Virus record (IMG/VR): IMGVR_UViG_3300042482_000297
Span: 1 to 21,117 of that record
Source of the DNA: a virus
Reading direction: 5' to 3' (one strand)
Length of the DNA stretch: 21,117 bases
The notes below the pieces were generated by a model. The model saw only the letters and a list, made by a program, of their open reading frames with translations, searched no databases and was not told the DNA's origin. The translations under genes were made by a program, and so were the position numbers. This document shows positions 2,369 to 17,411 of this stretch, one piece after another; position 1 is the first letter of the stretch; the number at the start of each line of letters is the position of its first letter.

Positions 2369-2889
2369 ACGACCAAAGCCTGCACGACTACCTGCGGGAA
2401 GTGGCACTGGCCCCCGGCGTGCGTAGCTACCTCGAGGTCGGATGCCGCGAGGGCGACAGCCTGCGGCAGATCGTCGCCAACTCGGTGATCATTGATCGAG
2501 TGGTGGTCTGCGATGTGTGGGGGCCGATGTACGGCGGAACTGGCCGCGGCAACAGCGATCACATTCAGTGGATGCTGAACGGACTGCTGTACACGGGCTC
2601 CCGGCTGTTCCTCGACGGCGACAGCAAGGAAACGGTGCCGACGCTCCGCGAGCAATTCGACGTCGTGCTCGTCGACGGCGACCATTCGCCAGCCGGGGCT
2701 TTGGCCGACCTGACCAACTGCTGGGGGCTGGTGGCTTCCGGCGGCCAGCTGGTGTTCCACGACATCCGCCATCCGGCCCATCCAGGCCTGCGGTCGCTGT
2801 TCCACGTCTTCATGGATGACCAGCCCGACTGTGGCCTCAGGCACGAGATTCTGGAGGGCCACGGTGTGGCAATCGCATGGAAGATGTGA
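2365..2889 (+). CDS. SAM-dependent methyltransferase (class I)
   Basis: A 174-residue Rossmann-type methyltransferase. Motif I is YLEVGCREG (residues 22-30), the acidic strand-2 end is VVVCD (46-50), the motif IV region is VVLVDGDHS (100-108), and a GGQLVFHDI strand follows at 126-134. The VDGDHS...GG.hhhHD layout is typical of the Methyltransf_24 type, which often methylates sugars or small molecules. No DNA-methyltransferase catalytic motif (DPPY or PCQ) is seen. It overlaps the resolvase by 4 bases and the glycosyltransferase by 13 bases, so a shared role in making or capping a glycan is plausible but inferred. Confidence 0.82.
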   Translation: MNDQSLHDYLREVALAPGVRSYLEVGCREGDSLRQIVANSVIIDRVVVCDVWGPMYGGTGRGNSDHIQWMLNGLLYTGSRLFLDGDSKETVPTLREQFDVVLVDGDHSPAGALADLTNCWGLVASGGQLVFHDIRHPAHPGLRSLFHVFMDDQPDCGLRHEILEGHGVAIAWKM

Positions 2890-3746
2890 CGATCAACCTT
2901 AACGAGTTCACGCCGGAAGTCGTGTTGCCAGTCGACCCGGAGTTTGCCGAGCAGTACCACGCAATGTCCGCCCTCGGCGAGGCCATTGCCAGAGAGTCAA
3001 AGGTCGTGATTGTCGGCATGGCCCGAGACATTGGGAACATCCTTCCGGTCACAATAGCCCGGCTCCAGGAGATCGGCTCTGGCTTCGGCCGATGGACTGC
3101 CGTGGTCGTGGAGAACGACTCGACCGACGACACCAAGGCCGTGTTGCAATCGTGGGCCGAGTCGAGCGGCGGCAACGTCCTGGCGGACTGCCGCGACCTC
3201 GGCCACAGCGACGAGCGGGGCTTTGAGGCGACAAGGGTGCAGCGGTATGCCACGTACCGAAACCGCTACCGCGAGCTCGCCCGCGACCGGTGGCCGGATG
3301 CCGACTACGTCCTGGCTGTCGACATGGATCCGTGGGGCGGTTTTTCCGAAAGCGGAATCTCCAACAGCCTCGGCTGGATGCACACCATGCCTGCCGCGGC
3401 ATGCATGGCCAGCACCTCGATCTACCGGGGCATCACAGACGCCAAAACGAAGGTGTGGGCGCATTACGATGCATGGGCATTTCGCGCGTGGGGCGAGGTT
3501 GCAAGGTTCGACCGTTACTTTCCGCTCTGGCTTCCGCCGCCAGGTGCTCAGCCGATCAAGGTCTACTCAGCGTTTGGAGCGTGTGCCCTTTACGATGCAA
3601 AGCGGTTCTATGAAGCGGAATACGTCAGCATCGACGGCGACATTGAGCACGCCGGATTCCACAAGAACATCCGCGATGCCGGCGGGGAGATTTACCTAAA
3701 CCCCGCGTCGCGTGTCGTCATGCACTGGCTCGGCGAGTACCTATGA
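2877..3746 (+). CDS. GT-A fold glycosyltransferase (CAP59/GT69-like)
   Basis: A 289-residue glycosyltransferase. Residues 42-51 (KVVIVGMARD) and 74-87 (TAVVVENDSTDDTK) are the nucleotide-sugar-binding half of a GT-A fold. RYATYRNRYRE (123-133) is followed by YVLAVDMD (144-151), which contains the metal-binding DxD (D149, D151). The VxENDSTDDT...RN..DxD order resembles the CAP59 mannosyltransferase family (GT69), though without alignment this subfamily call is tentative. There is no signal or membrane segment, so it likely acts in the cytoplasm. The ATG at 2877 lies within the methyltransferase's last codons, pointing to coupled translation. A second glycosyltransferase lies at 17986-18717. 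Confidence 0.8.
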   Translation: MEDVTINLNEFTPEVVLPVDPEFAEQYHAMSALGEAIARESKVVIVGMARDIGNILPVTIARLQEIGSGFGRWTAVVVENDSTDDTKAVLQSWAESSGGNVLADCRDLGHSDERGFEATRVQRYATYRNRYRELARDRWPDADYVLAVDMDPWGGFSESGISNSLGWMHTMPAAACMASTSIYRGITDAKTKVWAHYDAWAFRAWGEVARFDRYFPLWLPPPGAQPIKVYSAFGACALYDAKRFYEAEYVSIDGDIEHAGFHKNIRDAGGEIYLNPASRVVMHWLGEYL

Positions 3747-5094: not shown

Positions 5095-6000
5095 ATGTTT
5101 GATCCGCTCTTCGGCTACGAGCCCAATCCGACCGGCACGGCCGCGTTTGTTTCGACGCTGGCCGCACGCTCGCTGGCTCAGGCCGGGCCCGACCTTGTTT
5201 TGGACGAGGGGCGGGATGTCTTCCTCGGCCACGCCCTCCTGCAGTGCAGCCCGAGGTGGCGGCGGCTGAACCAGCCCATCGGCAGCTGTGTCGGCTACGC
5301 ATGGGCCATGGCCGTCGACATCCTCGCTGCGTGTGACGTAGTCATCCGCCGCGAGCCAGAGGCATACGGCGGGGAAGTGTTCCCGGCGAGCGTCTACGGG
5401 TTTTCGCGCGTGGAAGTCAGGGGCGGGCCCAACCACGGAGGCGACGGATCTTATGGCGGCGCTGCCGCCAAGGCCGTCACGCGCTACGGCACTCTGCACT
5501 TTGGCCAAGACTACGGCGGCACGGTGTTCCACGAGACATCGGCGAGCATCGAAAAGGATTGGGGCCGCAACGGCGTGCCCGACAAGCTCGAGCCCTACGC
5601 GGCCGAACGCAAAGTCGCCGATGTGACGCTTTGCACCAACTTCCAGCAGGCAGCCACGGCGATCCAAAACGCCTATCCTGTGGCGGTGTGCTCGATGCGC
5701 GGCTTTGACATGACGCTGCGAAACGGCGTCCTCACAGCCAGCGGCCAGTGGGCCCACGCGATGCTTTTCTGCGGCCTGAGGTGGAAGCCAAAGCCACAGT
5801 TGTATCTGGCCAACAGTTGGGGCGACTGCTACAGCGGCACTTACGACGAGACCCTGCCGGCCGTGTTCCAGCGGTCAGGCGGCTGGGTCGACGCCGACGT
5901 GTGCACGTCAATGCTCAAGGGCGAAGACTCATTCGCCCTCGCCGGATTCCAAGGCTTCAAGCCGCGCTCGCTCCCCGACTGGACTGGAGGCGTCCTATGA
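5095..6000 (+). CDS. Papain-like cysteine peptidase (C1 type)
   Basis: A 301-residue protein with the full papain-type catalytic set in order. QPIGSCVGYAWA (60-71) supplies the oxyanion Gln60 and nucleophile Cys65. GQWAHAMLFCG (217-227) supplies His221. LANSWGDCYSG (238-248) supplies Asn240 within the hallmark NSWG. Spacing is close to papain (C25, H159, N175). There is no signal peptide and no propeptide-like region beyond the first 50 residues. It starts at ATG 5095 with AGGGAGGGG upstream. It lies between a two-span membrane protein and an exported Cys-rich peptide, so it may act on the envelope during lysis or entry, or be carried in the virion. Papain-type enzymes are not the usual phage lysins (CHAP, amidase, muramidase). 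The fold call is strong; the role is inference. Confidence 0.85.
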   Translation: MFDPLFGYEPNPTGTAAFVSTLAARSLAQAGPDLVLDEGRDVFLGHALLQCSPRWRRLNQPIGSCVGYAWAMAVDILAACDVVIRREPEAYGGEVFPASVYGFSRVEVRGGPNHGGDGSYGGAAAKAVTRYGTLHFGQDYGGTVFHETSASIEKDWGRNGVPDKLEPYAAERKVADVTLCTNFQQAATAIQNAYPVAVCSMRGFDMTLRNGVLTASGQWAHAMLFCGLRWKPKPQLYLANSWGDCYSGTYDETLPAVFQRSGGWVDADVCTSMLKGEDSFALAGFQGFKPRSLPDWTGGVL

Positions 6001-6943: not shown

Positions 6944-7263
6944 TGGCCACATTCAGCCTGGAAAGCGGCACGCTCAACCTGACGGTGCCCAAGGGCACGG
7001 AGCTCGTTGCCACGCTTGACTTCTCCGACAACACGACCGACTACACCGTCACCAGCGAGGTTTACTCGCTCGTCGACGGCTCGACGCTCTACTCGCCCGC
7101 CATCGCCACGGTCTCTGCCACGGCTGGCCAACACACGATCACTCTGACCGAGTCAGACACGGCCAACCGCGGGGCTGGCACCTACGGCCTCCGTGTCATC
7201 CGTGTGGCCCCTGGCACGGTCACGAGGCGCATCACCGATGGCATGCTCGAGGTGAAGCCATGA
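6943..7263 (+). CDS. Beta-rich baseplate/fibre adaptor (BppU N-terminal-like)
   Basis: A 106-residue all-beta protein. The alternating pattern GTLNLTVPKGTELVATLDF, then HTITLTESDTANRGAGTYGL and a closing RITDGMLEVKP follow the layout of the small N-terminal domain found in phage baseplate upper proteins and many fibre-associated genes. These serve as adaptor domains joining receptor-binding parts to the tail. It lies directly before the repeat fibre gene with a 4-base overlap, which supports a structural role. The domain assignment is from pattern only. Confidence 0.6.
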   Translation: MATFSLESGTLNLTVPKGTELVATLDFSDNTTDYTVTSEVYSLVDGSTLYSPAIATVSATAGQHTITLTESDTANRGAGTYGLRVIRVAPGTVTRRITDGMLEVKP

Positions 7264-8060
7264 CCGACATCTCTGTGAGCGGCAACTCACCGTCTTCTGT
7301 CAGCGTCAGCGGCAGCACGGTGTCTGTGTCCGTGAGCTCGGGCGTTGGCCCGCAAGGCCCGGCCGGCAAAGACGGCGGCGCTGGCGTTGCATCGCTCAAC
7401 GGCCTCACCGGCACGCTCACGATTGCCTCGGCCGGTGGCGTAACGGCCTCTGGTAGCACGATCACGATTGGCGGCGGCGGCGGTGCCTCAAGCTGGGACG
7501 ACCTGACAGGCAAGCCGGACCTGGTCTACAGCGTCGCCGGCCGCACCGGCACCGTGACGCTGAGCACAGCGGACATCTCCGGGTTCTCGGCCGCGGCATC
7601 GGCTGCCGCTCCCGTGCAGTCTGTGGCCGGCCGCACTGGTTCAGTCACGCTCACCACGGCAGATGTGAGCGGCTACCAAGCCCCGCCAGTAACAAGCGTT
7701 GCGGGCAGAACCGGTGACGTAACACTTTCTACCAGCGACGTAACAGGTTTTGCGACCGCAGCTGCGTCTGCTGCCCCTGTTCAGTCCGTTGCCGGCAGGA
7801 CGGGGGCGGTCACGCTCACGACCTCGGACGTCTCTGGCTACGCAGCGCCTCCTGTGACGAGCGTGGCTGGGCGAACGGGAGCGGTGACGCTGGCAGGCTC
7901 CGACATCAACGCTGCGACGACTACAGCCCTCGGCGTTATCCAAGTTGGCGTTGGCCTGACGGCTACGGCCGGCGTTCTCTCTGGCGTCAACATTACAAGC
8001 GGCACGGCTGCAGCAACCGGCGGATCGTCCGGCGACATCTACCTGAGGTATTCCGCATGA
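7260..8060 (+). CDS. Tail fibre protein with alternating repeats
   Basis: A 266-residue low-complexity fibre. After a Ser/Val-rich start, residues 30-41 hold a short collagen-like run (GPQGPAGKDGGA). A Gly-rich hinge and WDDLTGKPD, a motif common in phage fibres, follow. From residue 89 five SVAGRTGxVTL repeats occur in an alternating pattern of 30- and 25-residue units. The C-terminal part (LGVIQVGVGLTATAGVLSGV) is of a type seen at fibre ends. It probably trimerises and contacts the host. It overlaps both neighbours by 4 bases. The structural role is well supported; the receptor is unknown. Confidence 0.82.
   Translation: MTDISVSGNSPSSVSVSGSTVSVSVSSGVGPQGPAGKDGGAGVASLNGLTGTLTIASAGGVTASGSTITIGGGGGASSWDDLTGKPDLVYSVAGRTGTVTLSTADISGFSAAASAAAPVQSVAGRTGSVTLTTADVSGYQAPPVTSVAGRTGDVTLSTSDVTGFATAAASAAPVQSVAGRTGAVTLTTSDVSGYAAPPVTSVAGRTGAVTLAGSDINAATTTALGVIQVGVGLTATAGVLSGVNITSGTAAATGGSSGDIYLRYSA
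7524..7907 (+). repeat. Alternating A-B protein repeats in the tail fibre
   Basis: Five units, each opening with V-x-S-V-A-G-R-T-G-x-V-T-L, start at 7524, 7614, 7689, 7779 and 7854. Unit lengths alternate 90, 75, 90 and 75 bases, and the fifth is partial, so the true repeat is a 165-base dimer. The peptides are near-identical but the DNA is not: the Arg of VAGRTG is written CGC, CGC, AGA, AGG and CGA in the five copies. Confidence 0.9.
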
Positions 8061-9829: not shown

Positions 9830-11135
<1,306 letters not shown>

Positions 11136-11554: not shown

Positions 11555-12028
11555 ATGGCTCGCACCGGCCGACCCCCGCAACCCGCCGCCGTCAAAAACC
11601 TGCTCGGCAACAAGGGCAAGCGCAAGATCCGTCCAGACCTCGCATCGCCGCCCGGCGTTCCAGACATGCCGGCACGACTTTTGCCGGATCCTGTTGCCGT
11701 CGACAAGTGGCGGGAGCTGGTGCCGATCTTGCAGTCGCTCGGCACCTTGACCATGTCCGATGGCGAGGCGCTTGCCACGTTGTGTGAAGTGTTTTCATCG
11801 GCGCAGCAGTGCCTGCTTGCCTTTCGCGCCGGCGGCGCTGTGATGCACACCGACCTTGGGGGCGTGAAACCAAACCCGGCCGGCCCGTTGTACCGGGGAT
11901 TAGTGGCGCTGCAGTCCACGCTAATGAGCGAGTTTGGACTGACGCCGAGCTCGAGGGCCCGCATCGGTGGCAAAGAAACCAAGCCGACAGACGAAGTCGA
12001 AGAGTTCTTCAAGATCCACGGGGCCTAA
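11555..12028 (+). CDS. terS: Terminase small subunit, P27-like
   Basis: The 157-residue protein starts at ATG 11555 with AAGG upstream. The opening GRPPQPAAVKNLLGNKGKRK is the signature of P27-family small terminases, and VDKWRELVPILQSLGTLTMS with the following helices fits the rest of the family. The C-terminus LMSEFGLTPSSRARIG is also characteristic. Small subunits recognise viral DNA and load it onto TerL. It overlaps the TerL frame by 62 bases. Confidence 0.92.
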   Translation: MARTGRPPQPAAVKNLLGNKGKRKIRPDLASPPGVPDMPARLLPDPVAVDKWRELVPILQSLGTLTMSDGEALATLCEVFSSAQQCLLAFRAGGAVMHTDLGGVKPNPAGPLYRGLVALQSTLMSEFGLTPSSRARIGGKETKPTDEVEEFFKIHGA

Positions 12029-13577
12029 GCTCACGGCCGATGGCCAGGCGAAGTACCTTCGCGTGGTGTCGTTCTTCGAGAAAATCCTTCGGCACTCCAA
12101 AGGGCAGAACGCCGGCAAGCCGTTCCTGCTTTTGCCATGGCAGCACCACGTGGTGCGTGAGCTGTTCGGCCAAGTGCATCCTGACGGCACGAGAAAGCAC
12201 AGGGTCGGCTACATCGAGTTGCCAAAGAAGCAGGGCAAGTCGACAACGCTGGCCGGCATCGCGCTGTACATGACGATGTTCGACTCCGAGCCAGGGGCCG
12301 AGGTGTACGGCGCGGCTTGCGACCGCGAGCAAGCGGGCATCATCTACCGAGAAGCCGCGTCGATGGTGCGGGCCTCGCCGGCCCTGAGTAAGCACCTCGA
12401 GGTGATCGACAGCCGCAAGACCATCGTGCACAAGGCAAGCAACTCGTTTTACCGGGTGCTGTCTGCCGACGCGTTTAGGGCCGAAGGATTGAATATACAC
12501 GCTCTCCTTTTCGACGAGCTCCACGCACAGCGCGACCGGAGACTGTGGGACGCTCTTCGCTACGGCGGTGCAGCTCGTCGGCAACCACTGATCCTGTCCA
12601 TCACGACGGCAGGGTACGACAGGAAGAGCATCTGCTGGGAGCAACACGCCTACGCCGAGCGATGCATCGCCAAGCCAGAGACCGACCCAGCGTTCTTTGG
12701 GTGCATCTACGCCGCTCCTCCCGAGTGCGGATCGGACGGCACTTGGAAGGATGAGAAGGTTTGGAAGAAGGCCAACCCGTCACTCGGGGAGACAATCACG
12801 GTCGAGTCGTTCGCGGCCGACGCCCGCGAGGCAGATGCAAGCCCGTCGAAGCTCAACGCGTTCCTGCGGTACAGGCTCAATGTCTGGACAACATCCGACG
12901 TTCGTTGGCTGTCGCCAGCGGCCTGGTCGAAGTGTTCCAAACCACTCCGCGAGGACTTGGCCAGCCGCGAGTGGTACGCAGGGCTCGACTTGGCGAGCAC
13001 CTACGATCTTTCAGCGTTCGTCATGGTGTCGCAGGCCGAAGACGGATCCTTTGACGTTATGCCCTACTTCTGGGTGCCAGAGAACAACGCCGCCGAGCGG
13101 GCAACCCGCGACAAGATCGACTATCTTGGCTGGATCCGCGACGGTCACATACGCGCCACGGATGGGAACGTCACTGACTATGACGTGATCCGCCGCGACA
13201 TCGTCGCCCTGTCCCAGCAATTCAACATCCGCCAAGTGGCGATTGACCGTTGGAACGCCACCCAGCTAGCGACTCAACTTCAAGGAGAGGGCCTGCAAGT
13301 CGTAGGTTTTGGGCAGGGATTCGGCTCGATGTCGAGCCCGTCTAAGCAGTTAGAGAACCTCGTCTTGTCCGAGCGGATTCGGTGCCAGAGTCCGGTGATG
13401 GACTGGATGGCCGGCAACGTCGCTGTGCAGACAGACCACATGGGCAACCTGAAGCCGAGCAAGGCCAAGAGCACGGAACGCATCGACGGCATCGTCGCCC
13501 TGGTCATGGGGCTCGGGATCCACGCGGCGGCAACCGGCAAGCCGCCCGAACAAAACTGGGACATGGTCATCCTATGA
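11967..13577 (+). CDS. terL: Terminase large subunit
   Basis: A 536-residue ATPase-nuclease that drives DNA into the prohead and cuts it. The Walker A-like loop is ELPKKQGKST (84-93), and Walker B is LLFDE (180-184). The C-terminal RNase H-like nuclease holds GLDLASTYDLSAF (339-351, D341), VAIDRWN (424-430, D427) and KSTERIDGIVAL (501-512, D507), giving the usual three acidic residues. GTG 11967 is the first start and overlaps TerS by 62 bases. It adds a basic Ser-rich leader (residues 1-20), and a slightly later start is possible. The stop overlaps the portal start (ATGA). Length and motifs fit Terminase_1/HK97-type TerL. Confidence 0.95.
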   Translation: MAKKPSRQTKSKSSSRSTGPKLTADGQAKYLRVVSFFEKILRHSKGQNAGKPFLLLPWQHHVVRELFGQVHPDGTRKHRVGYIELPKKQGKSTTLAGIALYMTMFDSEPGAEVYGAACDREQAGIIYREAASMVRASPALSKHLEVIDSRKTIVHKASNSFYRVLSADAFRAEGLNIHALLFDELHAQRDRRLWDALRYGGAARRQPLILSITTAGYDRKSICWEQHAYAERCIAKPETDPAFFGCIYAAPPECGSDGTWKDEKVWKKANPSLGETITVESFAADAREADASPSKLNAFLRYRLNVWTTSDVRWLSPAAWSKCSKPLREDLASREWYAGLDLASTYDLSAFVMVSQAEDGSFDVMPYFWVPENNAAERATRDKIDYLGWIRDGHIRATDGNVTDYDVIRRDIVALSQQFNIRQVAIDRWNATQLATQLQGEGLQVVGFGQGFGSMSSPSKQLENLVLSERIRCQSPVMDWMAGNVAVQTDHMGNLKPSKAKSTERIDGIVALVMGLGIHAAATGKPPEQNWDMVIL

Positions 13578-15256
13578 GCGACATCATCCACAGCGGCATG
13601 TTCGACACGCCGTCCGACCGCGACTGGCGGATGCTCAACCTTCGCGGGACGGAATACGCAGGCGTCGACTGGGGAAACAGCAACCGCACGGTGGCTGGGG
13701 TGCGTGTGACACCGGAAAGCGCCCTGCAATGCTCGGCGTTTCTGGCGTGCGTCCGCGTGATCTCCGAGAGCGTGGCCAGCCTGCCGCTGCATCTGTTTGA
13801 GCGGCTCGGCAACGGCGACCGCGTTCGTGCCGAGGCCTCTCCGCTGTACAGGCTCCTCCACCAACAGCCCAATTCCTGGCAGACGGCGTTTGAGTTCCGC
13901 GAGCAGATGACGGCCCTCTACCTCATGTACGGGCATTCGTTCGCCGAGGTGATCGGCTCCTCGCGTGTCGGTGCCGTGGCTGAGATGAGACCACTGCACC
14001 CGGCCAACATGATCGTCGAGCGTGTGGAAAACGGTGCCCTTCGCTACCGCTACCGGGAGCCGGGCGGCACTGGCAAGGAAACCATCTACCGCCAGGACCA
14101 GATCTTTCACCTTCGGTTCCTGTCGCTCGACGGGATCAACGGCGTGGTGCCGGCCACGGTCTGCCGCGATGCCATCGCCCTGGCCCGGGCCCTCGAGCAG
14201 CACGGCGGTGCCTACTTCGGCAACGGTGCCCGGCCCGGCGTCGTGCTCGAGAGCGACAACCCGGTGCCGGCCGAAGCGGCCGAGCGTCTGGTGGCCGCGT
14301 GGGAGCGGATGCACCGCGGGGCAGACCGGGCGTTTCGCACGGCCATGCTGCCCAACGGCGTGAAGGCCAAGGAGCTCAGCGGCAGCAACGAAGCGGCTCA
14401 GTACCTTGAGACGCGGCAGTACCAAGTGATCGAGATCTGCCGGGCTTTCCGCATGCCCCCGCACATGATCCAAGACCTGACCCGCAGCACCTACAGCAAC
14501 ATTGAGGTGCAGGGCACCGAGTTCGTGCAGCATTGCCTGCTGCCGCACCTCAAGCGGTGGGAGGCGGCCATCTCGCGCGACCTCATTGCCGACGACGACA
14601 GGTACTTTGCTGAGCACAACGTCAACGGCCTGCTCCGCGGGGATTCGGCGGCACAGTCGTCGTTCCTCACATCGATGCTCGACCGCGGCATTTTCGACAT
14701 TGACGAGGCGCGTTCGTACCTCGGGATGGCTCCGCTCCCTGCCGAGGCAGGCAAGCTGCGGCTTGTGCCGCTGAACATGCAGACGGTGGCAGCTGCTACG
14801 GCTGGCCCGCCACAGCCACCGGCGATGCAGCCGGCCCCCGAGCCTGCCCCTGTGGTCGAAGACTCACCGGCCGACGACACCGAAGACGAGCTCGAGGGCA
14901 ACGGCCAGCGCAAGGCCAAGGCCGAAGACGTGGAAACGCGAGCCCTCACCATCAGCATCGACTTCGACGCCACGTTCTCTGCCGACCCTGGCCTGTGGGG
15001 CATGTTTGCCCGGCAGGCTGTGGCCGGCGGAAACACCGTCGTGATGATCAGCCGCCGCGAGGACACGCCAGAGAATCTGGCCACGATCACCGAGACCCTC
15101 GGTGCGTGGCGGGAGTTCTTTTCCCGCGTGCTCTTGATCGGCACCGAAACGCTGAAGGAAGCCGCCGCCCGAGATGCCCAGATCGCCGTCGATGTCTGGG
15201 TGGACGATTCCCCGCACACCATCACCGACCGCACGCCTCAGGAGGCTATGCCATGA
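13574..15256 (+). CDS. Portal protein with C-terminal HAD-like domain
   Basis: The start is ATG 13574 in an ATGA overlap with TerL. The 560-residue product is an HK97-family portal for about the first 400: ALQCSAFLACVRVISESVAS, YLMYGHSFAEVI, PHMIQDLTRSTYSNIEVQ and GIFDIDEARSYLGMAPLP are standard portal stretches. It forms the ring at one head vertex through which DNA passes. Beyond a Pro/Glu/Asp-rich linker (about 408-450) comes an extra domain, 457-550. It contains ISIDFDAT (motif I, D463/D465), VVMISRR (motif II, S493), K528 and VDVWVDDSP (motif IV, D544/D545), the order of motifs in HAD-family phosphatases. Common HK97 portals stop near 400-450 residues. The portal call is firm; the HAD call is from motif pattern and is fairly strong. 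Confidence 0.92.
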   Translation: MSDIIHSGMFDTPSDRDWRMLNLRGTEYAGVDWGNSNRTVAGVRVTPESALQCSAFLACVRVISESVASLPLHLFERLGNGDRVRAEASPLYRLLHQQPNSWQTAFEFREQMTALYLMYGHSFAEVIGSSRVGAVAEMRPLHPANMIVERVENGALRYRYREPGGTGKETIYRQDQIFHLRFLSLDGINGVVPATVCRDAIALARALEQHGGAYFGNGARPGVVLESDNPVPAEAAERLVAAWERMHRGADRAFRTAMLPNGVKAKELSGSNEAAQYLETRQYQVIEICRAFRMPPHMIQDLTRSTYSNIEVQGTEFVQHCLLPHLKRWEAAISRDLIADDDRYFAEHNVNGLLRGDSAAQSSFLTSMLDRGIFDIDEARSYLGMAPLPAEAGKLRLVPLNMQTVAAATAGPPQPPAMQPAPEPAPVVEDSPADDTEDELEGNGQRKAKAEDVETRALTISIDFDATFSADPGLWGMFARQAVAGGNTVVMISRREDTPENLATITETLGAWREFFSRVLLIGTETLKEAAARDAQIAVDVWVDDSPHTITDRTPQEAMP

Positions 15257-15888
15257 GCGAAATTGAACGCCGCGACTTTGAGTTCGACGCCGCCGACGAC
15301 CTGGTCGTTGAGAGCCGGGCTGACGGCCGCGCCGCCATCGTCGGCTATGCCGCGGTCTACAACCGCCTGTCGCTCGATCTGGGAGGCTTTCGGGAGATGA
15401 TCCTGCCGGGAGCCTTTGACAAGGTGCTCAGCCGGGAGCGGGGCCGCCAGGACGTTGTGGCGCTGTTCAACCACAACTCCGACATCGTCCTCGGCCGCAC
15501 GTCGAGCGGCACGCTGGAACTGTCGAGCGACGACAAGGGCCTCCGCTACGTCGTCACACCTCCCGTCAGCCGAGCCGACGTGCTCGAGCTGATCCAGCGA
15601 CGCGATGTGAAGGGCAGCAGCTTCGCGTTCACGGTCGACCCCAAGGGCGAGGCGTTCGTGGCCGACGAAAAGGGCGCGATCCGCCACATCCGCGAGGTGT
15701 CGGGCCTGTACGACGTGGGGCCGGTTCTGGTGCCGGCCTACCCAGCGTCGACGGCTGGCGTGGCCATGCGGTCGTACCAAGTGTGGCTGGCTTTGCAGGA
15801 GGCTCAGGCAAAGCCCGAGCCGCGTTCCCTGGTGCCCTACGCGGCCATCGCCGCTGCCCTTCGCCTGCGGAGCCAAATGCGTGGCTGA
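15253..15888 (+). CDS. HK97-family prohead protease
   Basis: The start is ATG 15253, overlapping the portal stop. The 211-residue protein carries the family marks: IVGYAAVYNRLS (29-40), ILPGAFDKVL (50-59), ALFNHNSDIVLGR (70-82, catalytic His74), GSSFAFTV (121-128, nucleophile Ser123) and DVGPVLVPAYPAS (154-166). The enzyme removes the delta domain of the capsid protein during head maturation. The order portal-protease-capsid is canonical. The stop lies inside the start of a small zinc-protein gene. Confidence 0.94.
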   Translation: MSEIERRDFEFDAADDLVVESRADGRAAIVGYAAVYNRLSLDLGGFREMILPGAFDKVLSRERGRQDVVALFNHNSDIVLGRTSSGTLELSSDDKGLRYVVTPPVSRADVLELIQRRDVKGSSFAFTVDPKGEAFVADEKGAIRHIREVSGLYDVGPVLVPAYPASTAGVAMRSYQVWLALQEAQAKPEPRSLVPYAAIAAALRLRSQMRG

Positions 15889-16112: not shown

Positions 16113-17411
16113 ATGGACGTGATCAAGCAGCTCACCGACGAGTCGGCCGAAGTCGCCAACCGGATGGACGCCGTTCGTTCCATGGAGTGCGTCGACGCGG
16201 ACGCCGTCGCGGCCCGCGACCTCGAGCTGGAGTCTCTCTCCACCCGGGCCGGCAACCTCACCAAGAAGCTCAGCTTTGAGCACGCCGTCGTCGAGCAGGC
16301 CAAGAGCCTCCGAGCGGTGGTCGACCGCTGCACCCCGGCCGTCGAGCCCGCCAAGGCCCAGCGTGCCCGCATCGAGCCCGTCGCCTACCGCGGCAAGCTC
16401 CGTGCCTACAAGGATCCCGCCGAGGCCTTCACGGTGGGCCAGTGGATCAAGGCTCAGTACACCGGGGACGCCGACGCACGCCAGTGGTGTGCCGATCACG
16501 GCGTCGAGGTGCGGACGATGGGCGAAGCGACCAACGCGGCCGGCGGTGCCCTCGTCCCCGACGTGATGATTGCCAACCTCATCCGCCTGGTCGACGTCTA
16601 CTCCGTCTGGTCGAGCTCGATGCAACAGGTCCCAATGGCCAGTGACGCTGTCCTGTTTCCGAAGCGGGTTTCCGGCGTCACTGCCAACTGGACCGGCGAG
16701 AACGCCGAAATCACCACGAGCGATCCGGCAGTCAACCAGGTGCAGCTGGTCGCGTCCAAGCTGACGGTCGGCACGAAGGTCTCCAATGAGGTGCTTGCCG
16801 ATTCGGCAATCAACCTCGGAGATTTCATCACCGAAGAGTTCGCCACGGCCATCTCTGGCAAGCTCGAGGCCGCGGCGATTGCCGGCGACGGCACGAGCAC
16901 CTACGGCGGAATCGTCGGCCTCAAGGCCAAGATCGGTGCGGGCTCCGTCCACACGACCGGCGCAGGCCGTGACACGTGGGAAGAGCTCGTCGCGGCCGAC
17001 TTCCTCGGTGCGCTCGGCAAGCTCCCCCGCTACGCCCTTAACGGTGCCCGCTGGTACATCTCGAGCCTCGGCTTCGCCCTGGCGATGCAGCGGCTCGACA
17101 TGGCCGCTGGCGGCCGGGTCTCGGTCGAGGGTGGCACGGGGCTCCAGTTCGCTGGGTTCCCGGTCGAGATCACCGACCAGACCCATTCGACCGACACCGA
17201 CTTCACCGGCGAGACCATCGCTTACTTCGGCCGGCCCGACCTCTGTGGGATGTTCGGCCTGCGGTCGCAGTTCGCCACCCGGATCAGCACCGAGCGGTAC
17301 GTCGAGTTCGACCAGACGCTGTTCACCGGTGTCGCCCGCGGCACCATGGTCTGGCACTCGGCTGGCGATGCAACCACGGCTGGTGCCATCGTGGCGATCA
17401 AGGGTGCCTGA
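16113..17411 (+). CDS. Major capsid protein, HK97 fold
   Basis: The 432-residue product starts at ATG 16113, with CCAGGAGACG upstream as a strong ribosome site. Residues 1-75 are a helical, charged delta (scaffold) domain. The shell domain begins near 100-150 with the family phrase NAAGGALVPDVM (141-152). It continues with FPKRVSGVTANWTGENAEI, LTVGTKVSNEVLADSAINLG (E-loop and spine helix region), GDGTSTYGGIVGL and a C-terminal RISTERYVEFDQTLFTGVAR. The delta domain is presumably removed by the upstream protease; the cut site cannot be fixed by eye. The gene is rich in GC-ending codons, as expected for a highly expressed gene here. Confidence 0.95.
   Translation: MDVIKQLTDESAEVANRMDAVRSMECVDADAVAARDLELESLSTRAGNLTKKLSFEHAVVEQAKSLRAVVDRCTPAVEPAKAQRARIEPVAYRGKLRAYKDPAEAFTVGQWIKAQYTGDADARQWCADHGVEVRTMGEATNAAGGALVPDVMIANLIRLVDVYSVWSSSMQQVPMASDAVLFPKRVSGVTANWTGENAEITTSDPAVNQVQLVASKLTVGTKVSNEVLADSAINLGDFITEEFATAISGKLEAAAIAGDGTSTYGGIVGLKAKIGAGSVHTTGAGRDTWEELVAADFLGALGKLPRYALNGARWYISSLGFALAMQRLDMAAGGRVSVEGGTGLQFAGFPVEITDQTHSTDTDFTGETIAYFGRPDLCGMFGLRSQFATRISTERYVEFDQTLFTGVARGTMVWHSAGDATTAGAIVAIKGA

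Follow-up and report, generated by a model that had tools for sequence, protein, structure and literature searches.

A predicted HAD-superfamily phosphatase domain at the C terminus of phage portal proteins, exchanged as a head-module cassette

Introduction

Enzyme domains on phage portals have already been described. Nudix domains are fused to MuF proteins, portals, and the capsid-processing serine peptidase (PMC9503650), and PBECR, 2H, and InPase domains are fused to portals or MuF proteins (PMC5512222); these head-protein fusions have been read as packaged, injected enzymes (PMC5512222, PMC9503650). In a text search of PMC5512222, we encountered neither a HAD nor a phosphatase domain, and where PMC9503650 names HAD enzymes, the context is RNA repair or ADP-ribose. 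With regard to portal topology, the HK97 portal exposes its crown on the inner face of the capsid (PMC10359639), and the C-terminal domains of the P22 portal extend inwards (PMC4992974). Here, we analyzed an IMG/VR virus record of 21,117 bases from a freshwater phage (hereafter the window, meaning this whole stretch of DNA), in which the HK97-type portal continues into a HAD-like domain.

Results

Portal gene and head module

The portal of the window is encoded in a packaging and head module that comprises the following features:

11555..12028, + strand: terminase small subunit, TerS (PHROG 83, E=4.8e-28)
11967..13577, + strand: terminase large subunit, TerL (Pfam TerL_nuclease, E=4.8e-44)
13574..15256, + strand: portal gene with C-terminal HAD domain (ATG 13574 to TGA 15256, 560 aa)
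13736..14725, + strand: portal core, residues 55-384 (Pfam PF04860 Phage_portal, E=1.1e-102)
14798..14938, + strand: Pro/Ala/acidic linker, residues 409-455 (predicted disordered, pLDDT <50 in the full-length model)
15253..15888, + strand: S78 prohead protease gene (Pfam PF04586, E=1.4e-36)
16113..17411, + strand: HK97-fold major capsid protein, MCP (Pfam PF05065, E=1.8e-25)

The portal shares ATGA overlaps with TerL on its upstream side and with the S78 protease on its downstream side. Its product matches PHROG 12 (portal, E=2.5e-108), and its PF04860 core, lying in the gene order TerL-portal-S78-MCP, identifies it as an HK97-type portal. Further, the HK97 portal structure (PDB 8cez, 424 aa) aligns to residues 45-392 of the window portal (E=1.4e-53); the two proteins have the portal core in common, whereas the linker and the HAD domain, which belong to the ~160 residues beyond the core in the window portal, are absent from the HK97 portal. 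An initial annotation, made from the sequence alone, had described an HK97-type portal followed by a Pro/acidic linker and, in an unbroken frame, by a tail domain. The Pfam and 8cez matches and the predicted disorder of residues 409-455 agree with this description, and the reading frame is open across all 560 aa. A frameshift separating the portal from the tail domain, the possibility against which that annotation had set its proposal, is excluded by the occurrence of the same gene, at 100% identity, in two IMG/VR contigs (L002 and L004) from other metagenomes; these identical genes, together with the many relatives described below, likewise rule out an assembly error.

Outside this module, the window encodes a GDP-mannose 4,6-dehydratase-like protein (10170-11135; Pfam E=1.6e-135, PHROG 540), accompanied by a weakly glycosyltransferase-like gene (2877-3746) and a methyltransferase-like gene (2365-2889). 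A 301-residue protein (5095-6000) contains papain-like GSCVGYAWA, WAHAM, and NSWG stretches and had no match in Pfam, PHROG, or PDB searches. A tail-like protein (7260-8060; PHROG 2952, minor tail protein) carries repeated PVQSVAGRTGxVTLTTxDVSGY units.

Motifs and sequence relatives of the C-terminal domain

The folded C-terminal domain of the portal comprises ~90 residues, in which the four HAD motifs were located as follows:

14942..15208, + strand: HAD-like domain, residues 457-545 (AlphaFold2, Foldseek HAD cores, PHROGs 4919/4256)
14960..14974, + strand: motif I, DFDAT, with D463 as the putative nucleophile and D465 as the putative acid/base (D, D, and T467 invariant in 155/155)
15050..15058, + strand: motif II, S493, followed by the conserved R495 (S or T, and R, in 155/155)
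15155..15157, + strand: motif III, K528 (invariant in 155/155)
15203..15208, + strand: motif IV, D544-D545 (invariant in 155/155)

Motif I conforms to the DxDx(T/V) pattern of HAD proteins, and motifs II (the S/T that ends strand 2), III, and IV follow in order. These recomputed positions coincide with the ordered motif set of the initial annotation, in which the acid pair of the DVWVDDSP stretch corresponds to D544/D545. All catalytic positions are kept in each of the 155 distinct domains among the matches listed, whether portal-fused, protease-fused, or separate.

Portal residues 457-560 (14942-15253) match PHROGs 4919 and 4256 (E about 1e-12), which are of unknown function and of which a few records are labelled HAD-like or polynucleotide kinase. 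When the domain is aligned with stand-alone counterparts from phages such as rV5, phiEco32, PAK_P1, and Vibrio phage 1.034.O, the columns that do not vary include D463, D465, T467, R495, K528, D544, and D545, and position 493 holds S or T. Pfam and NCBIfam searches with the C-terminal domain returned no family, HAD included, at a meaningful score, and one relative of the domain gave a weak BT0820-type HAD match (E=0.012). Similarly, a profile search against solved structures found no HAD sequence match, its best matches being designed Rossmann proteins. The Swiss-army-knife HAD family of phage RNA-end phosphatases (PMC7824862, PMC9503650) is a lead as candidate kin.

Predicted fold

AlphaFold2 (24 alignment rows) predicted an E-H-E-H-E-H-E Rossmann core, with pLDDT mostly >94 in the domain core, and in the full-length model the HAD domain folds independently of the rest of the portal. 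A Foldseek search of the PDB gave 2mu1 as the best match (E=1.7e-3, probability 1.00), a modest E-value against solved HAD structures that is attributable to the small size of the domain; the CopA P-domain, KDO8P phosphatase (YrbI), Pnkp1, MDP-1, and T4 Pnk were also matched, with HAD cores leading the list and other Rossmann folds mixed in. Against viral models, phage HAD-like proteins were the best matches (E down to 1.6e-6), and weaker matches carry the labels XkdF or prohead protease. The structure prediction that the initial annotation had proposed as a check therefore returned a confident Rossmann core with HAD cores at the top of the Foldseek matches, which excludes a fold lacking this core, and the proposed fusion of a HAD-type domain to an HK97-type portal is supported by the fold, the motifs, and the continuous frame. 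A chance motif is ruled out by the PHROG matches, the AlphaFold2 fold, and the conservation of the motif residues in 155/155 domains. The portal C-terminus thus carries a flexibly tethered, minimal domain of the HAD superfamily that apparently lacks a cap, and the intact motifs of this domain suggest that it would have phosphatase activity.

Distribution and architectures

Our scans of viral contigs covered the best 80 loci each or the matches listed, and the counts obtained, which are biased by the query, are minima: at least 91 distinct domains (identical domains merged) reside at the portal C-terminus, at least 52 at the C-terminus of the S78 protease, at least 5 at its N-terminus, and at least 7 in separate ORFs, including genes beside the S78 protease. 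Extended portals of this kind, for which a search had been suggested from the window alone, are thus present in large numbers. The S78 partner was confirmed by Pfam in relatives (E about 1e-31 to 1e-33), and no locus among the matches listed has two HAD domains. A fused relative, L003, has a portal 88% identical and a domain 77% identical to those of the window. Of the 50,697 phage records searched, 1,639 have a match to the portal, none of them covering 80% of it, and no fused portal was found there; a search of plasmids for the HAD domain found none. L121, which looks like a separate form, probably reflects a chimeric or erroneous contig, its linker being the portal linker.

In a tree of the domains, which rests on 101 columns and of which only the large splits were used, the portal-fused forms cluster and are nested among the protease-fused forms, and nearly all early-gene stand-alone forms lie outside this head-module group.

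With regard to the host, three of the four genome matches are Planctomycetota MAGs, namely (i) L161, where the domain is fused, (ii) L162, where it occupies a separate reading frame overlapping the portal end, and (iii) L163, where it has a gene of its own following the protease; the remaining match, in Gemmobacter, is to a distant stand-alone gene. These binned contigs provide moderate evidence that the hosts are probably Planctomycetota. In the phylum of genome G003, 4 of 294 genomes match at E<=1e-6, which makes a host-genome role for the HAD domain unlikely.

Cassette exchange and selection

Comparison of the window with two near-identical contigs, L167 and L168, delimited the inserted segment:

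14888..15251, + strand: exchangeable cassette of 364 bp (L167/L168 have 34 bp instead; flanks 92.6-94.1% identical)

The L167 and L168 portals are 98% identical to the window portal over the query and end after the linker, and the start of the S78 protease is retained where the cassette is replaced. Three further presence/absence pairs (L170 and L179, L177 and L181, L182 and L183) were found, and the flanks across all of these comparisons, that of the window with L167/L168 included, are 88-94% identical. Among 101 fused proteins, portal identity and domain identity correlate with r=0.39 only; at one extreme, portals 97-99% identical carry domains 61-69% identical, and at the opposite extreme, portals 53% identical carry domains 98% identical. 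The dN/dS ratio is about 0.26 for the HAD domain versus 0.33 for the portal. The domain is therefore dispensable, since near-identical phages lack it, and it is exchanged and under purifying selection.

Other modules at the exchange site

The exchange site, located in the head module where portal and protease meet, is a hot spot that also takes up modules of the ADP-ribosyltransferase, zincin-like peptidase, and TUDOR types. In L109 (2-1714), one frame encodes a portal fragment, the HAD domain, and then an ADP-ribosyltransferase (ART) exoenzyme domain (ADPrib_exo_Tox, Pfam E=2.8e-11), and in L156 the portal-HAD fusion is followed by a weak ART (DRAT) match (E=0.002). The portal-HAD proteins of L013 and L142 have zincin-like tails with an HExxH motif, L013 also giving an LPD1 match below the cut-off, and a Hva1_TUDOR domain is present on some sister portals, with the extra modules placed before or after the HAD domain. 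Further, Ntox46 and the HAD domain are encoded together in L095 by a single gene, which adjoins zincin-like genes. This co-occurrence with ART, zincin-like, and Ntox46 domains is a property of the loci of relatives and is absent from the window itself.

Several observations were made alongside. In L095 (9-4166) and L094, several neighbouring genes that lie upstream of the S78 protease and adjoin the Ntox46-HAD gene have in common a RAFCPGASPPDNSC-type stretch and HExxH zincin-like motifs. The window-like portal of L228 (1579-4302) is without the HAD domain and has a different tail of ~370 residues, which appears ART-like by eye and had no match in a Pfam search. In L251, L005, and others, the N-terminus of the S78 protease often carries a conserved YDHIDFTPP...GVRxEA domain, and in L251 the stretch between HAD and S78 matches PHROG 2859.

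Discussion

Possible roles of the domain

The intact state of the catalytic residues through the swapping between portal and protease suggests an enzyme that is carried inside the phage particle. We favor, at about an even chance, the reading that the portal is a polyvalent protein whose HAD domain is a phosphatase loaded into the virion and perhaps delivered together with the DNA. Given the HK97 and P22 portal topology, a HAD tether after the crown would sit in the head, and we infer such an interior position for the phage analyzed here. During prohead assembly, with the crown facing the head interior, up to twelve HAD copies could be loaded there, and the mature virion would then hold 12 copies. 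The prohead protease works inside the prohead, and relatives would load the same domain through fusion to this protease; prohead loading is the sole feature common to the portal and protease fusions. In HK97, the channel through the portal measures about 22-35 Angstrom across (PMC10359639), and a folded HAD domain would therefore need unfolding or cleavage to leave. Most likely, it would be freed by proteolysis or exit unfolded, and would then enter the cell together with the phage DNA; the protease could also clip the domain off and degrade it before virion maturation. In the cell, the enzyme might remove a phosphate from a nucleotide or nucleic-acid end, and thereby protect the incoming genome or reprogramme the host, the type of substrate being a guess from the structural neighbours Pnkp1 and T4 Pnk. 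As a more tentative proposal, with the chances leaning against it, widespread freshwater, probably Planctomycetota, phages may keep the HAD phosphatase in the head, attached to either the portal ring or the maturation protease. Carried in the virion, it would serve counter-defence by dephosphorylating, at DNA entry, the nucleotide signals of the host or nucleic-acid ends produced by cutting.

The same fusions could instead reflect a role in head assembly or at DNA ends, in which the enzyme acts in the prohead or at the packaging motor, dephosphorylating either DNA ends or some component of the head, and stays out of the cell. Among the matches listed, the head-module forms are fused only to the portal and the prohead protease, both of which are prohead components, and the polynucleotide kinase/phosphatase of T4 is, with Pnkp1, a structural neighbour, which is consistent with such a role. 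We nevertheless consider it unlikely, as near-identical phages do without the domain, which is exchanged like an accessory cassette, and as the ADP-ribosyltransferase on the same sister portals has no obvious assembly role. It is also improbable, in our view, that the phosphatase has its task in the cell ahead of assembly (nucleotide or tRNA-end metabolism, for instance) and that its fusion is a by-product of gene overlap at the hot spot. In Vequintavirus, Kuravirus, and Pakpunavirus phages, the stand-alone relatives do have replication and nucleotide genes around them, and the tight packing of the head module, with its ATGA overlaps, favors accidental fusion; however, the separation of the head-module forms from most early-gene forms in the tree, and the repeated joining at three different head-protein termini, suggest that position matters.

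A HAD fold that serves binding or structure only would suit a domain that is small and apparently capless and for which no activity is known, but a purely structural role would not demand the constancy of all catalytic positions that the 155 distinct sequences, drawn from very different phages, display; we regard a non-catalytic domain as very improbable.

Comparison with known systems

While portal-borne enzymes are established, the HAD type is an addition to them, and the putative phosphatase would join the few enzyme types that form part of portals and head proteases. Its HAD fusions span hundreds of uncultivated phage contigs, and the cassette pairs, in which near-same phages occur with and without the domain, constitute a clean natural experiment. 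Portal C-termini behave here as a site at which modules are plugged in and which is expected to point into the head; they offer a testable enzyme-carrying route into cells, and virion-borne effectors can be found by reading the ends of portal and protease genes.

Compared with the phage proteins of PHROGs 4919/4256 from rV5, phiEco32, PAK_P1, and Vibrio phage 1.034.O, the window has the same domain with the same invariant residues, but those proteins are stand-alone genes outside the packaging module, whereas the window domain is portal-fused. With the small-capped or capless HADs (MDP-1, KDO8P phosphatase, Pnkp1, and the T4 Pnk phosphatase), it has in common the Rossmann core and the DxD...S/T...K...DD order, and it differs from them in comprising only about 90 residues. 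A further likeness is to the polyvalent and portal- or MuF-fused effectors (PMC5512222, PMC9503650), in which an enzyme is placed on a portal, MuF protein, or serine peptidase; here, too, the candidate enzyme domain is on a virion head protein, the portal in the window and S78 in relatives, and the ART, zincin-like, and Ntox46 domains seen in relatives of the window locus are of the kinds that occur as partners in those systems. The plugging of modules into the portal/protease hot spot matches the logic of polyvalent proteins, in which enzymes are built into virion proteins, with the difference that the enzyme here is, as predicted from its sequence, a HAD phosphatase.
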